37,571 nt of DNA from a virus, in the IMG/VR virus record IMGVR_UViG_3300036906_000079, positions 1 through 37,571 of that record, one strand, 5' to 3'. Of this stretch, positions 2,546 to 37,491 are shown in pieces. A program made the translations under genes and the position numbers. The stretch's first letter is position 1; the number at the start of each line of letters is the position of its first letter. The notes below the pieces were generated by a model, which worked only from the letters and a program-made list of their open reading frames with translations, was not told the DNA's origin and made no database searches.

Positions 2546-4183
2546 CTACTGAGTGGTTGGAAAGTCCGTTCCCTGCTCGCGCTCATATTGCGCAACGGCC
2601 TGGGCCTCGGTGTATGCGTGCATGGCGAGTGGGATGTGATCGCAATGGATGAGCACGTCGAGCCCGGCGCGGGTGGGATTCCCATCCGGGTCCTCGAATA
2701 CGGGCGGTGTGGCTGACACCAGTACCTCGACGTCAATCTCATCGATCATAGCTTGGCCTAGAATCTCGATCATGCGTCGATACTCCTTCGCGCGGAGGAT
2801 GCGTTCGACCTCCTTGCGGTAGGCTCGCTGTCCAGCGGGGTTGACGCGGGCAACGTCGTGGTCGGCTTTGCGGGTGGCGAACTGAAAAATGGCGGTCAGG
2901 GTGCTGGCTTTAGCCGGGATCGTTTCATACTCCTTAACTTTTATCTCTTCGGACTTTTTTGGCTGCTTAATCTCATCGTTATCTTGGTACTCCGCGACGG
3001 TGCATATGGGCGCTATGTTGCGCGTGAGCTGAGTTGGGTCGTCGAGCCAGACGGGCACGCCGTCGTCCTCATAGTCGAAGGGAAAAATCTTGGCGCAGTC
3101 ATTGAGGTCAGTGGACCAGATTTCGCCAGAGTAGCGTCGTCCTGTCTGCTCATGCAGCTTATTAAGCACGTCGCTGATCGAGGCTACACAGTTCCCCGAC
3201 AGGCATTTGAAACCGAGGCCACTGGGGCCTCCAAGAATCAGGCAGGAGTGTCCCTTGCCTACGCCCTGGTCATGGTGGGGTGCACCTTTCCATGGACAGG
3301 ATGACGTCGAGTAATAGACGAGGTCGCCCTCCTCGGTGATTCCGTCGATCTCTCCGAACTGGTCGGGGAATTCATCAACCAGATCCTCGACGGAAAAATC
3401 GGGATCGAGGCAGGTGGCAAACCTCCGCTGGGTTGGGCGGTTGGCGGTGAGCATACCACCTTCCACGGCGAGACCATAAATTTTGCCCGCGTTCACAGGC
3501 TCCCAGGCCGCCGGGTAGCTGATGATGGAAGATAGGCGACCGGCTTTCTTATTCAAGGTGTGGGGCAGTCGCGCTACGCGTGATTCGTCGAAAACGCCGG
3601 TGTCGAGCTTAACTTCGGCGGTCGAGAACTTGCGGTCGAGATACTCAAGAGCGAGCTTGAGATGACTCCCGTCGGCGGAGCAGTGGTCGCCCTTGTAGAG
3701 CATATGGACGCCATTTCCGCTGCTGAGTAAGACAGGCGCAGGCCAACCCTTTGATGCAAGGTACTCGCGCACCGTGGTGGCCAGTGCAAGGGCGGCGGCC
3801 AGCTCATCGGGGGTTGCAGCGGTGTCATGCTTGGCGGGGTCTACGTCAACTAGGTACAGGTTGCGATGGGCGATCGATTCCTTCTTCGCCGTCTGGCGGG
3901 CGCGGCGGGGAAGGTTGTTGTGCTTAACCGAGGTGGCATACTTTGAGTCGGGCCGGATGGGATTGAGCGCGTAATATACGTTGGCACCGCACTCCATCAT
4001 CTTCATGGCGGCGCGGGCGGCGGTGGGGACGTCGTTAGCAAGCATCCGCATGACGCCGAACTCGGGCGACTCCAGACCACGGATCTCGATCAGATCGCCG
4101 GGCTGGAAAACATAACGGAGGAAGCGCTCTATCTCAGCAATCTGTTGGGGGACGGTAAGTGTAAGGGTCTCGGCTATTTGCAT
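2546..4183 (-). CDS. archaeo-eukaryotic-type DNA primase (AEP superfamily)
   Basis: This is a replication primase or primase-polymerase of 545 residues. The AEP catalytic signatures appear in order: YLVDVDP (DxD, about residues 110-116), SSGNGVHMLY (sGNG-H, about 154-163) and DESRVARLPHTLNKK (about 199-213). A Cys/His stretch, CPWKGAPHH followed by CLILGG and KCLSGNC near residues 295-335, looks like a zinc-binding module. The C-terminal third is charged and unassigned. The ATG at 4183 overlaps the stop of the ATPase gene upstream; an ATG at 4195 is in frame but lies directly against the AAAGG. With the neighbouring DUF3987-type ATPase it likely forms the phage replication pair. Confidence 0.82.
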   Translation of the reverse strand: MQIAETLTLTVPQQIAEIERFLRYVFQPGDLIEIRGLESPEFGVMRMLANDVPTAARAAMKMMECGANVYYALNPIRPDSKYATSVKHNNLPRRARQTAKKESIAHRNLYLVDVDPAKHDTAATPDELAAALALATTVREYLASKGWPAPVLLSSGNGVHMLYKGDHCSADGSHLKLALEYLDRKFSTAEVKLDTGVFDESRVARLPHTLNKKAGRLSSIISYPAAWEPVNAGKIYGLAVEGGMLTANRPTQRRFATCLDPDFSVEDLVDEFPDQFGEIDGITEEGDLVYYSTSSCPWKGAPHHDQGVGKGHSCLILGGPSGLGFKCLSGNCVASISDVLNKLHEQTGRRYSGEIWSTDLNDCAKIFPFDYEDDGVPVWLDDPTQLTRNIAPICTVAEYQDNDEIKQPKKSEEIKVKEYETIPAKASTLTAIFQFATRKADHDVARVNPAGQRAYRKEVERILRAKEYRRMIEILGQAMIDEIDVEVLVSATPPVFEDPDGNPTRAGLDVLIHCDHIPLAMHAYTEAQAVAQYEREQGTDFPTTQ

Positions 4184-5511
4184 ATGTGCACCCATCCTTT
4201 CGGCTTGCGGTAGTCGGGCTCACCATCGTTGCCGGACTCATATTGCATCACAATGAGCTTGTCGTCGATCATGTCTTGCTTGGCCCGGCGTACCAGATTG
4301 CCAAAACGCCGATGCCAGTTTTTTCTCCGCGCGATATCAGACCACTGGATCCAATGTGTGGTCCCCTCTTCGTCCTCAGCCTCGGCCAGATCGTCGGCCT
4401 CGGCCAGATCGTCGAACAAAGCGTTCATGCACTCCGCGCTTGGATTAAGAGCTTGACTGGCGTGGTAATGGCGTTTGACTTTTTCCTGCCATTCGGCGAA
4501 GCGCAGGGCGGCCTGGATGCATTCGGGAGTCAGCACTTTGTCATGGTTCAGGCTGGCAGAGATGAGCGCGATGCGCTCAGCTATCTCACAAATTCTTCCG
4601 CGCTTCACGCCCTCGGGAGGATCGTCGCGCCAGGCCTCAAATTCAAAAATATTGTCGTCGGATATAGTTACCGTCGAGGGATGGCGAATCGCAAGGGTGG
4701 GCCTCCAGGTCTGGGTGTATTTCCAGCCGTTAGGGCCGGGGCAGATCAAGAGGCGTGAGAAGTAGCCCCCGAGGGTTGTGACGCCCATGGTTCGAGAGAA
4801 GTCTGTGCGATCCTTGCAGGCCAGTGCACCCAGCATGCTGATGCGTGCAAAGATCGTCCACGGGTCCTTTTTCACGCCGCCCGACTCCTCATCCTCATCC
4901 CACAGATGGGTCAGGGCTGTAGACAGTGCCAGTCCAGACCCCTGGATCGACATTTTACTTAGGAGGGTGAGCGCCTCGTCCATGACGATGCATTTGCGCG
5001 TCATCTCCCTGATAATAGGATCGCCTTTTTTGTGTTCGGCGGGCAGCGGCTGTGCCAAAATCTCCTCTAGGCCGCGATCGCTTCCTGGGACGCCCCTAAA
5101 AATATTCATGGAGTGCTCCATACCCAGGGTTTTCATTGCCCGCTTGTACGACAGCGACTTACCGTCCTCGGGTGGTCCGACTAGGTCGCAATATAGGGTT
5201 GGGCGGATGACGCTTGTCATCGGAATTGGGCGCGAAGTAAATAGAGTTAAGACTGAGGGGTAGGCCCAATTTAGTGGGCTGTCTAAAGACCGCGCAATCT
5301 CTCCGGCGACTCCATATAGGGCTGAGTCGGGAATTTGCAGGGCGCAGGTGGGCTGCTTGACCGGCAGGCGCGGTGCGGGTGGTGGCGGCGGCGGTAAAGG
5401 TGCTGGTGTGCCTTCCCAAGTCTGGACCTGGGCTTGGTTCAGAGGCTCGGGATCGGCTAGGTCACTAAGGTCATCAACGTCTACGTCTACGACTTGTTCG
5501 ATCGTGCTCAT
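4174..5511 (-). CDS. DUF3987-like P-loop ATPase, replication helicase candidate
   Basis: The 445-residue protein has an acidic start (DVDVDDLSDLAD), a Pro-rich linker (about 36-50), Walker A GPPEDGKS (112-119) and Walker B CIVMDEA (about 174-180). This arrangement, with YPSVLTLF before the P-loop and LGGYFSRLL later, matches the DUF3987/YfjI group of phage and plasmid proteins, which pair with primases. The ATG at 5511 follows AGGAGAG by 7 bases and is preferred to a TTG at 5517. Near the C-terminus an 18-bp tandem duplication (4379-4414) doubles the acidic peptide DDLAEA. The final ~60 residues (WSDIARRKNWHRRFGNLVRRA) look like a winged-helix DNA-binding tail. Confidence 0.75.
   Translation of the reverse strand: MSTIEQVVDVDVDDLSDLADPEPLNQAQVQTWEGTPAPLPPPPPPAPRLPVKQPTCALQIPDSALYGVAGEIARSLDSPLNWAYPSVLTLFTSRPIPMTSVIRPTLYCDLVGPPEDGKSLSYKRAMKTLGMEHSMNIFRGVPGSDRGLEEILAQPLPAEHKKGDPIIREMTRKCIVMDEALTLLSKMSIQGSGLALSTALTHLWDEDEESGGVKKDPWTIFARISMLGALACKDRTDFSRTMGVTTLGGYFSRLLICPGPNGWKYTQTWRPTLAIRHPSTVTISDDNIFEFEAWRDDPPEGVKRGRICEIAERIALISASLNHDKVLTPECIQAALRFAEWQEKVKRHYHASQALNPSAECMNALFDDLAEADDLAEAEDEEGTTHWIQWSDIARRKNWHRRFGNLVRRAKQDMIDDKLIVMQYESGNDGEPDYRKPKGWVHICK
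4379..4414. repeat. 18-bp tandem duplication inside the ATPase gene
   Basis: Two exact copies of an 18-mer (4379-4396 and 4397-4414) lie head to tail in frame. They encode DDLAEA twice in an acidic linker. The change keeps the reading frame and probably alters only linker length. Confidence 0.85.
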
Positions 5512-5646: not shown

Positions 5647-6297
5647 TTAAAGGTTCGCTGTGCACGGGTCGGTGCGCTGCTCCCAGGTTTTCTTCATCTG
5701 GTCGTAGACCTTGAAGAAAGCATCGGACGTCTCCTCATCGTCAGAGTACCGACGCCAGATCGCGCGGAGTGGCATAAGCTCCAGCTCAAAAGGATGAAGC
5801 TCGCCGCGAGTGAACTTGTTGTCGAGGGTGATGGGCTCGCCCTCCTCCCCGAGATCAAAGCTAAGCGCCAGGTCATGATGCACGAGCTCGTCGAGGATCG
5901 CCAACATCAGGATTGGCGGGAAGCGGGTCTCGGTGACCAGCTCCTGCCCGGAGACAAAGCCACCGCTCTCAGAGTTGTCCAGGGTTACGAGGAGGCGCAG
6001 AATGTGGAGTGATGCTGCGAGTACAATGGTGGCCTCGTCGCCCGGGGTGACTACCTGCCCGCCGACGATCAAGCCAGCGGTGACCTCCTCGTCCACAGAG
6101 ACAATGGAGGCAGCAGCAAGTGAAGCGTGGACCCGATCGACGGTGCGGGCGCGGTCACGGGCAATAATGTCCTCCACGACGTGATCGAGGTTTTGCCCGG
6201 TAGCCTCGGCCTGTTGCTGCCAACTACGGTGGTTCCGGATGGTACTGGCTAGAGCAGCGACGGAAGCGGTAGAGGGACGGTAGGTGGGCTGGGTCAT
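5647..6297 (-). CDS. hypothetical early protein, 216 aa
   Basis: I do not recognise this protein. The ATG at 6297 overlaps the TGA of the upstream winged-helix gene (ATGA), so the two are probably coupled; upstream in-frame extension would run through that gene and reads as Arg/Pro-rich nonsense. The product is acidic and mixed alpha/beta. It has a helical N-terminal part with DHVVEDIIARDRARTVDRVHASL, a central hydrophobic part ATIVLAASLHILRLLVTLD (about residues 94-112) that is likely a buried helix rather than a membrane span, and a C-terminus rich in Glu/Asp (RRYSDDEETSDAFF). Position suggests a role in early control or replication. Confidence 0.65.
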   Translation of the reverse strand: MTQPTYRPSTASVAALASTIRNHRSWQQQAEATGQNLDHVVEDIIARDRARTVDRVHASLAAASIVSVDEEVTAGLIVGGQVVTPGDEATIVLAASLHILRLLVTLDNSESGGFVSGQELVTETRFPPILMLAILDELVHHDLALSFDLGEEGEPITLDNKFTRGELHPFELELMPLRAIWRRYSDDEETSDAFFKVYDQMKKTWEQRTDPCTANL

Positions 6298-6596
6298 TCG
6301 GACACCGCCTGGGTTGGGGCGCATTGCGCGTTGAGCAGAGCCGTCAGGTTTGCATCCACTTCGTATGCCGATGGCAAAATCTCGAAGTGACGGCGGTCGC
6401 CCCACTCTGGGTTCCAGGTTTTCACAAGGTGCTGGCGCACGAGGCGGCGCAACTGTGAAGAGGCGGTTGCACCGCAGCAGCCGACCTGGTCTGCTATCTG
6501 TGTGTGGGTGAGTCTGCACGGGGCAGACGCGAGGACGCGTAGGATCAGGCGGCCATAGGCTGTTACTCTCTGACTCTTTGGATCTGTGGGTGCCAT
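6294..6596 (-). CDS. winged-helix DNA-binding protein
   Basis: This 100-residue protein has an HTH-like core: RLILRVLASAPCRLTHTQIA (about 16-35), then DQVGCCGATASSQLRRLVRQHLV, then a basic strand region WGDRRHFEILPS that resembles a wing. The pattern of a short helix, a tri-helical core and a recognition helix before a wing resembles ArsR/MarR-like regulators or phage replication organisers. GGGAG lies 11 bases before the ATG. It heads the leftward operon next to the control region, so it is a good candidate for the protein that binds the TGACTAT elements. Several Cys (26, 39, 40, 92) are present without a clear metal motif. Confidence 0.65.
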   Translation of the reverse strand: MAPTDPKSQRVTAYGRLILRVLASAPCRLTHTQIADQVGCCGATASSQLRRLVRQHLVKTWNPEWGDRRHFEILPSAYEVDANLTALLNAQCAPTQAVSE

Positions 6597-6610: not shown

Positions 6611-6904
6611 CTACTCCTCCGTGACGTAGTCCGCAAATTGCTTAACTGTACTTTTTGCGATGATGCGTGGCAAAGTGCGTAAAACCCGCGTGCTTATTGG
6701 CGATTCCGCATTCTGAGGCCAGATATGACGCGGAGAGCACCCTGTGGAAAACAGTTCAACCCCAACTTTGGTTTCTGCTGTAAGTCGATGAATTGTATAC
6801 AGTTGTAACAAACTTATAACTATTTTTCGGGGCATGATGTGGCTGTAGCACGGGTGAGGCAGATGGCAGGCTGACCAGCGGATTCCCTCGTCCAAAATAG
6901 TCAT
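6611..6904 (-). CDS. doubtful 97-aa ORF at the head of the leftward operon
   Basis: The frame is open from an ATG at 6904 to a TAG whose end forms the GGAGGAG ribosome site of the next gene. A shorter version begins at an internal ATG (MPRKIVISLLQLYTIHRL). The DNA here is much more AT-rich than the neighbouring genes, no family is recognisable and there is no Shine-Dalgarno before the ATG. A TGACTAT element covers the start codon. The stretch may instead be untranslated leader or promoter DNA. Confidence 0.28.
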   Translation of the reverse strand: MTILDEGIRWSACHLPHPCYSHIMPRKIVISLLQLYTIHRLTAETKVGVELFSTGCSPRHIWPQNAESPISTRVLRTLPRIIAKSTVKQFADYVTEE

Positions 6905-7240
6905 ATTCTCAGTGGCTGACTATCGGGTAACCACTTTGCTTTCAGCAACATGCAGGGCAAAATAGTCAGAGCTGACTATCGTATAAGTCATTTAGAATCA
7001 GTAATAAGCAGGATTCTTTGCTGTACTTAAGGAGGAGAGAGAGAGAGATAGATGTGTAAATTAATGCCTTAACATTGGTGTTTCTGCTCCAGAATGGATT
7101 TTTACCAATGTTAAGGCACTTTTCTCAGATGTTTGTCTGTCCCCCCTTAAGGAGAATTTGACTATTTTCCCCCTTTTGCCACCTAACCCCTTTTATATCA
7201 ACACACACCAAATAGTCATTACCCAACACCCTGACTATTT
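6894..7240. promoter_or_regulatory. early control region with seven TGACTAT elements
   Basis: Copies of TGACTAT or its complement ATAGTCA, most with an added A/T tract, lie at 6894-6903, 6917-6923, 6959-6968, 6973-6979, 7159-7168, 7210-7218 and 7232-7240. Six of them form three inward-facing inverted pairs. The first and last pairs have the same 13-base spacer and the middle pair has 4. The array lies between the leftward early operon and the rightward genes from 7374, which suits operators for a divergent switch. Iterons of an origin would also fit, since the DNA is AT-rich and the replication genes are adjacent. No convincing -35/-10 pair could be assigned. Confidence 0.7.
7065..7118. repeat. 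15-bp perfect inverted repeat with 24-base loop
   Basis: TGCCTTAACATTGGT at 7065-7079 is exactly complementary to 7104-7118. CTTTTCT follows, so on the + strand this could act as a terminator or attenuator, though the loop is long. Just upstream are CTTAAGGAGGAG and a six-codon ATG-to-TAA frame (7052-7072) whose stop lies in the left arm. CTTAAGGAG recurs at 7147-7155. The rest of 6905-7373 shows no gene. Confidence 0.75.
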
Positions 7241-7373
7241 CCCCTGCCCGCAACCCTAGAATCAGCAACTTAACCAGCCCTGTGCCAGATTTACCTAGAA
7301 ACTATGCACCCCTCTCAGAATCGATGCAAATAAACAAACCGACTTCCATCTGTTAAGCAGGAGAACAAAAACC

Positions 7374-10930: not shown

Positions 10931-10961
10931 ACGGACCCCACCTTATGCAGGTGGGGTCCGT
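10931..10961 (+). terminator. hairpin after the capsid gene
   Basis: Arms of 13 bp (10931-10943 and 10949-10961) pair perfectly around the loop TATGC. No T tract follows, only TGTGCGTTG, so it may be a partial terminator or an mRNA 3' stabiliser. Either would let capsid transcripts be more abundant than those of downstream genes. Confidence 0.65.
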
Positions 10962-11013
10962 TGTGCGTTGCAAAATACCTGATTTCAGAAAACCGACTAC
11001 GGCCCGTATAGGT

Positions 11014-11634
11014 ATGCACGGTTTTTACGTTTACACATACCTCCGGGAAGATGGCTCACCCTACTACGTCGGCAAGGGCAAGGGGCGTCGCGCGTACCAG
11101 CCACATCACGGCCACCGCGCACCAGAACCCGCTCGGATTCACATCTTCCCGATGGCTGACGAGGCCACAGCTCTCGCATACGAGTGCTACCTCATCGACT
11201 TCTGGGGTCGCAAGGACAACGGCACCGGCATCCTGCGCAACCTGACGGATGGCGGTGAAGGCGTCTCCGGCTTCAAGAATGCGTCGGCAATAGGTAATAA
11301 GTACGGAGCCTTCCCCCGCTCAGAAGCCACCCGGAAGCGAATGAGCGATGCAAGTCCCCGCAGAAAACACACTCCGGAATTTCGGCAGTGGATGAGCGGC
11401 CAAAGAAAAGGAAAGTCGTGGGGCCAGCACACATCAGAGTGGTGCCGAGAAAGAAGCGAAGCGACCAAGGGCAGGGCACACCACCTCTCCGACGAAGCTC
11501 GCGCATCTATTGCCGATTCCAACCGGCGGAGAACGGGACAGAAGCGCCCCTCAGGTAGTAACAACCCCGCCAACCACAACCGCTGGCACGTTACACGCGG
11601 CATCGTCAAAGCGGGGTGCGCACTATGCGCATAA
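11014..11634 (+). CDS. GIY-YIG homing endonuclease
   Basis: The 206-residue protein opens with a GIY-YIG nuclease domain (about 1-90): FYVYTYLRED then YYVGKGKGRRAY, with the conserved Arg, and a Glu in AYECYLIDFWGRKD. Behind it lie several NUMOD3-like DNA-binding repeats (SEATRKRMSDASPRRKHTPE, SEATKGRAHHLSDEARASIA). The C-terminus, HNRWHVTRGIVKAGCALC, has His and Cys placed as in a small zinc knuckle. It is free-standing and inserted between the capsid and terL genes; no intron is apparent. Its stop overlaps the terL start region. Such genes spread by cutting phages that lack them. Confidence 0.87.
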   Translation: MHGFYVYTYLREDGSPYYVGKGKGRRAYQPHHGHRAPEPARIHIFPMADEATALAYECYLIDFWGRKDNGTGILRNLTDGGEGVSGFKNASAIGNKYGAFPRSEATRKRMSDASPRRKHTPEFRQWMSGQRKGKSWGQHTSEWCRERSEATKGRAHHLSDEARASIADSNRRRTGQKRPSGSNNPANHNRWHVTRGIVKAGCALCA

Positions 11635-37046: not shown

Positions 37047-37268
37047 ATGGCAACAAACATCTCCATCCGCCTTGGTCGAAAGATCCGCGACCTGCGTCGT
37101 CAGCGGGGGTGGAGACAGATTGACTTGGCAGCACACGCGGAACTGAGCAAGACCCACATTTGCGAGTTGGAGCTGGGGAAGCGGGAAGTTGGCCTTAAGA
37201 CACTTGAGCGCATAGCACAGGCGCTGGACATGAAGATTTCCGACCTGATGAAGTTGATAGGCCGGTGA
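37047..37268 (+). CDS. XRE-family transcriptional regulator
   Basis: The 73-residue protein is a Cro/C1-type helix-turn-helix: LGRKIRDLRRQRGWRQIDLA, then AHAELSKTHICELELGKREV, then LKTLERIAQALDMKISDLMK, all canonical for the fold. It lacks a C-terminal oligomerisation or protease domain, so it is a small Cro-like or SinR-like regulator. The GGAGG lies directly against the ATG, with no spacer and no other in-frame start before a TAG, so translation may be weak. It is the only XRE gene in the window and may be the lysogeny repressor. In the excised circle it would lie upstream of int. Confidence 0.83.
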   Translation: MATNISIRLGRKIRDLRRQRGWRQIDLAAHAELSKTHICELELGKREVGLKTLERIAQALDMKISDLMKLIGR

Positions 37269-37444: not shown

Positions 37445-37491
37445 ACGGTTTACGAAACCGTTGCTCTACCAACTGAGCTACATCGGCCTGC
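37445..37491. repeat. attR core (47-bp direct repeat) with 5' tRNA-Thr fragment
   Basis: This is an exact copy of 81-127. It holds the tRNA-Thr 5' half (37445-37487) up to the anticodon stem; what continues inward is phage DNA, so it is not a functional tRNA. Read on the minus strand, TTGCGC and TAGAAT with a 17-base spacer lie just outside (about 37504-37532), which looks like the original host promoter, now driving only the fragment. Confidence 0.9.

Follow-up and report, generated by a model that had tools for sequence, protein, structure and literature searches.

A candidate two-sided iteron origin beside the operon of a predicted MCM-like helicase in a soil prophage

Here, we report that a seven-copy TGACTAT array in an integrated soil prophage is probably the replication origin of the phage, with iterons that would be bound by the C-terminal winged helix of the phage's own helicase; this reading combines sequence comparison, structural modelling and analogy with known initiators. 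The window (the whole stretch of DNA analysed, 37,571 bp and 58% GC overall) is the IMG/VR virus record IMGVR_UViG_3300036906_000079. Because a 47-bp direct repeat is found at both ends (81–127 and 37445–37491, both inside the tRNA-Thr gene) with an integrase adjoining it (att site and integrase at 81–1212), the window is a complete integrated soil prophage of ~37.4 kb, with these repeats as the prophage ends. The small terminase subunit was identified by Pfam and PHROG, the large terminase matches 2,214 phage records, and the capsid, portal, protease and tape-measure-like ORFs were assigned by reading the sequence. No match to the array region was returned by a DNA similarity search against known phages, and the genome contigs scanned with the terminase and the helicase held no relatives.

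All seven exact copies of TGACTAT in the window, both strands counted, lie within 6897–7238 (Table 1), which bears out the copy number given in a first-pass annotation of this DNA. The expected count for the whole window is 2.4, and dinucleotide shuffles of the 777-bp intergenic region averaged 0.11 copies and never exceeded 3 (2,000 trials). A 7-mer of any kind reached seven copies in 0 of 1,000 shuffles of the same region, and in 1 of 2,000 under a looser criterion by which overlapping copies were also counted. Local 7-mer clusters as large as this are otherwise confined to coding repeats of a tail-fibre-like gene near 33.8–34.4 kb. The array is confirmed as real and far above chance. It lies between divergent genes, as annotated earlier, and adjoins a leftward replication operon on the operon's 5' side.

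The copies are arranged in two clusters, four on the left (6897–6979) and three on the right (7159–7238), around a low-GC core that contains a perfect 15-bp hairpin; both the two-sided layout and the hairpin were missing from the first-pass annotation. What had been described there as three inward-facing inverted pairs, two of them with identical 13-base spacers, is partly correct: there are three pairs, spaced by 13, 4 and 13 bp, but the partners face away from each other when read 5' to 3' as TGACTAT, and the two 13-bp spacers (TATTCTCAGTGGC and TTACCCAACACCC) are equal in length and different in sequence. Five of the seven copies share the extension TGACTATTT and the other two have a different 3' extension (TGACTATCG). 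Site spacing is irregular across the seven copies, and TRF found no tandem array in the region. When viral contigs were scanned for exact copies of the 13-bp-spaced pair, 39 matches came up, with at most three TGACTAT per 600 bp and mostly on AT-rich contigs, which we attribute to chance.

Table 1. Positions of the array elements and of the genes considered with them
Feature	Positions	Strand	Description	Basis
Iteron 1 (TGACTATTTT)	6897–6903	-	left cluster	exact match
Iteron 2 (TGACTATCGG)	6917–6923	+	left cluster; partner of iteron 1, 13-bp spacer	exact match
Iteron 3 (TGACTATTTT)	6962–6968	-	left cluster	exact match
Iteron 4 (TGACTATCGT)	6973–6979	+	left cluster; partner of iteron 3, 4-bp spacer	exact match
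Iteron 5 (TGACTATTTT)	7159–7165	+	right cluster	exact match
Iteron 6 (TGACTATTTG)	7212–7218	-	right cluster	exact match
Iteron 7 (TGACTATTTC)	7232–7238	+	right cluster; partner of iteron 6, 13-bp spacer	exact match
Core between clusters	6980–7158	.	candidate DNA-unwinding region	37% GC
Perfect 15-bp inverted repeat, 24-nt loop	7065–7118	.	inside core	DNA fold z -5.2
100-aa winged-helix protein	6294–6596	-	first operon gene	weak Pfam winged-helix matches
216-aa protein, function unassigned	5647–6297	-	same operon	ORF
Predicted MCM-like AAA+ helicase with C-terminal winged helix	4174–5517	-	proposed iteron-binding initiator	Walker motifs, AlphaFold2, structural aligner
Primase, putatively of archaeo-eukaryotic type	2546–4195	-		motifs VDVDP and SGNGxH, conserved with L023
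Excisionase-like ORF	1756–1953
XRE gene	37047–37268

Candidate roles of the core hairpin are a priming site, a terminator or a second regulator site. The related locus L023 likewise has an inverted repeat beside its core (6097–6160; 11 bp, 42-nt loop). Rfam placed one sub-threshold match, to a microRNA family, on the core hairpin, and this was taken as chance. DnaA boxes are represented in the window by a single site with one mismatch, with no cluster. A GC-skew switch near 7200 was dropped as origin evidence because it coincides with the change of gene direction.

The adjoining operon runs leftward from 6596 to 2546 and encodes, in order, the 100-aa winged-helix protein, the 216-aa protein, a 447-aa helicase and a 549-aa primase. 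The 216-aa protein matched nothing in Pfam or PHROG. The primase, which has no Pfam match either, was tentatively assigned to the archaeo-eukaryotic type, which is marked by hhDhD and SxH catalytic motifs, from VDVDP and SGNGxH as read by eye; a Prim-Pol Pfam match is found in the relative L014. Just upstream of the winged-helix gene, a stretch (TTGTCA-TAATAA ... GGGGTGTAAC) is conserved in L069 (near 5750) and L023 (near 5225), and is a candidate operator for the winged-helix protein, distinct from the iterons.

The helicase carries the Walker A motif GPPEDGKS and the Walker B motif IVMDE, and its C-terminal third is similar to phrog_5311, a helicase family of PHROG (E 8e-4). AlphaFold2 models built from four or six sequences were poor (mean pLDDT 42.5 and 49.3), with most residues of the AAA+ core under 50; the best-modelled part is the C-terminal segment (residues about 358–447; ten-residue mean pLDDT 59–81), where the modelled order of helices and wing is that of a winged helix. 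With the structural aligner (VIA), MCM helicases came out on top for the helicase model (Z 8.5–10.5, up to 176 residues aligned over 69–446), and the structural neighbours of the C-terminus were winged-helix domains, including that of a plasmid Rep-DNA complex, 5kbj (Z 6.6, 79 residues, rmsd 3.5). Foldseek gave no match to the model below E 0.001. Taken at the quality of the models, these results support, but do not prove, an AAA+ helicase with a C-terminal winged helix. Neither the helicase nor its relatives had a match among 50,697 phage records, and the window helicase had none among 72,556 plasmid records.

Relatives were gathered via terminase relatives plus primase or helicase alignments, which yielded four lineages besides the window, i.e., five with a homologous helicase, where L014 and L075 (helicase regions 80% identical) are counted as one. 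Wherever a contig carried a homologous helicase with sufficient flanking sequence, an array adjoined the helicase gene. L069 and L073, which are 100% identical over the origin region, have 13 copies of TGACATG around a 35%-GC core and keep the gene order of the window. L071 has seven copies of TGACAAC (core GC 0.37), and L014 and L075 have 11 copies of GTAACGC each (core GC 0.25 and 0.24). The observed count was reached in 0 of 1,000 shuffles each for L069, L071, L014 and L075. The array of L023, a locus that also keeps the window gene order, surrounds a TA-rich core and is weak: the exact 7-mer count of its CCCGTTT was reached by 126 of 1,000 shuffles, and by 1 of 40 with one mismatch allowed.

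The two-cluster layout around a core is shared by the window, L069, L071, L014 and L075, and the cores of the relatives (24–37% GC) hold the same position relative to the clusters as in the window; those of L071, L014 and L075 are rich in ATATAT. L014 and L075 are identical at 68 of 77 iteron positions and at 220 of 409 positions elsewhere (Fisher p 2e-9), and their site spacings agree within 1 bp (8, 130, 12, 11, 16, 46, 8, 8 vs 8, 129, 12, 11, 15, 46, 8, 8). The first-pass annotation had suggested one dimeric regulator or an iteron initiator; these arrays of the same layout beside helicase homologues (weak in L023) speak for the iteron and origin half of that suggestion.

The other half, namely that the array is only a transcriptional operator, on whose inverted pairs a dimeric phage regulator (the 100-aa winged-helix protein, the XRE protein or the excisionase) would sit to control divergent early promoters, we consider unlikely. 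Such an operator would suit the position between divergent genes, the inverted pairs, two of them with equal 13-bp spacers, and the place of the winged-helix gene as first in the adjoining operon. However, in L071, L014 and L075 the helicase is fused to the primase and the array lies just 3' of the gene, so that it is not a divergent promoter there, and a profile of the 100-aa protein, run against the loci, picked out homologues in the window, L023 and L069 alone (and tblastn one in L073), none being detectable in these three loci although arrays and helicases are present. In addition, an exact scan of the window found no TGACTAT near the XRE gene or the excisionase-like ORF, the copy nearest to the start codon of the 100-aa protein lies at a distance of 300 bp, on the upstream side, and a low-GC core is flanked by clusters in all families.

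The same loci bear on the earlier proposal of the 100-aa protein as the partner of the array, which they do not support. An origin at which this protein, and not the helicase, binds the iterons as initiator and recruits the helicase would fit with the place of its gene in the replication operon, beside the array, and with its conservation in L023 and L069, each with an array; we regard this as improbable, given that arrays persist in L071, L014 and L075 without a detectable homologue, that the only component shared by all array loci is the helicase, and that the helicase has a predicted C-terminal winged helix of its own. That domain appears, from the model, to be a better candidate for the iteron binder, and the 100-aa protein is more likely a regulator of the operon.

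Comparison with phages of the same group that have other replication genes indicates what the array travels with. L008 is close to the window in its structural genes (protein identity 59% for the small terminase, 73% for the large terminase and 95% for the capsid) and also shares homologous p120, p86 and HNH genes. In place of the window operon, L008 encodes an HTH_36 protein and a DnaC/IstB-like ATPase, and in the slot of the window array (L008 4769–4850) there are seven tandem iterons of 11 bp (CTGACTTGGTC / CTGAGCTGGTC) and then AT-rich DNA, which we read as a different origin type despite the 95% identical capsid protein. In L016, five identical 21-bp repeats (2323–2427) are found inside an initiator-like gene with a DnaC-like gene adjoining, and resemble a lambda-O type origin. 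Since L008 and L016 swap in other iterons, the array belongs to the replication module and not to the structural genes; L008 and the window share a conserved sequence immediately upstream of p120, which places the exchange junction right of the array. Short repeated motifs can act as arm-type or terminase sites, and yet a role of the array in recombination or packaging (as integrase arm sites or pac/cos) is hardly credible, because the att site and integrase are about 6 kb from the array and an entirely different array lies beside the similar terminases and capsid of L008, i.e., the array does not follow the packaging genes.

For the array as a helicase-bound origin, we propose the following course by analogy with SaPI Rep, Cch2 (PMC7581432) and PICI origins (PMC6092414). 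The C-terminal winged helix of the AAA+ MCM-like helicase would read TGACTAT, and helicase subunits would dock on the four sites of the left cluster and the three of the right. The docked helicase may then assemble as rings, one on either side of the core, which would melt the AT-rich DNA between them, after which the partner primase would prime both strands. With the sites upstream of the operon, helicase bound there might also act as a repressor of operon transcription, i.e., by autoregulation. Helicase binding to the sites, the start of replication at the array and the order of these events are what we infer. Several points count against the origin reading: the independent relatives are few (five lineages including the window) and the array of L023 is weak; there are only seven sites, with irregular spacing and two with a different 3' extension; the window array lies between divergent genes, where operators are expected; and the helicase model is of low confidence, with only its C-terminal third moderate.

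Among the closest known systems are the PICIs, at whose origins an AT-rich region lies between two iteron sets (PMC6092414), and SaPI Rep and Cch2, whose C-terminal domain binds the origin iterons (PMC7581432). As in the SaPI/PICI origin, two sets of short iterons in the window flank an AT-rich region next to an initiator-helicase gene, and as the SaPI/PICI initiator has a C-terminal DNA-binding domain (PMC6092414, PMC7581432), the window helicase has a predicted winged helix at about 358–447. A PICI is a helper-dependent satellite, whereas the window carries the head and tail genes of a complete temperate phage. The SaPI/PICI origin lies 3' of rep, as do the candidate origins of L071, L014 and L075 relative to their helicase genes, whereas the candidate origin of the window is 5' of the operon. 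The window primase also differs in being, as far as its motifs show, of the archaeo-eukaryotic type, and the window helicase profile matched no solved chain of SaPI Rep or Cch: both were absent from the profile search of PDB sequences at E<=1 and from the structural neighbours listed for the model. SCCmec Cch2 is an active helicase whose C-terminal domain alone binds AAGTG iterons beside its own gene (PMC7581432); it has three direct repeats of 5 nt as sites, placed after the operon, compared with seven 7-mers in both orientations and two clusters in the window.

In phage P4, the alpha protein is a primase-helicase whose winged-helix domain binds origin repeats (as summarised in PMC4234260), in which a bacterial-type (Toprim) primase is fused to the helicase (PMC4234260). 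Compared by description, the window is like alpha and its ori/crr repeats in placing a helicase winged helix on origin repeats, which for the window is predicted only, and unlike it in having a primase that is not fused to the helicase and that appears to be archaeo-eukaryotic. Proteins of the DUF3987/PrimQH type, as described in PMC5862659, combine a primase, a DUF3987-like AAA+ domain and a C-terminal winged helix on mobile elements, and are predicted helicases that may recognise an origin; the window likewise has a primase, an AAA+ helicase and a predicted C-terminal winged helix. The window helicase, however, has no match to Pfam DUF3987 (PF13148), for which L069 scores 26.7 bits, just under the cut-off of 27.0, and L023 16.4. 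We found no origin sites described for DUF3987-like primase-helicases in the passages of PMC5862659 consulted. Lambda-type and tandem-iteron origins, such as those of L008 and L016, likewise place their iterons beside AT-rich DNA or within replication genes, but these are tandem direct repeats in one block with DnaC-like loader genes. In the window, sites of either orientation are present to the left and to the right of the core, and the phage brings a helicase of its own.

These loci provide candidate origin sites from five lineages; as nearly each lineage pairs its own motif with its own helicase, recognition by the C-terminal domain is directly testable. If the helicase-bound origin is true, it would explain how a phage helicase family without a known target finds its origin. 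Complete phages would then also possess the two-sided type of iteron origin that has been described as unique to PICIs, and this would bear on where satellites got their replicons. More broadly, we put forward as a tentative possibility that a group of as yet uncultured complete temperate phages carries self-sufficient MCM-like initiator helicases, of which the C-terminal winged helix reads a lineage-specific 7-bp iteron at a PICI-type two-sided origin; in that case the layout would be a general property of such helicases, one that whole phages share.

Two further observations were made. The ORF at 10945–11634, between the capsid and large terminase genes, resembles a GIY-YIG homing endonuclease (GFYVYTY...YYVGKGKGRR); it is absent in L008 and L014 and present at the same place in L018. 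A second shared element, AGAATCAG(C/T)AA, occurs at 6993–7004 and 7257–7268 in the window and once in the origin region of L069 near 5475, and could be chance or the site of another protein.
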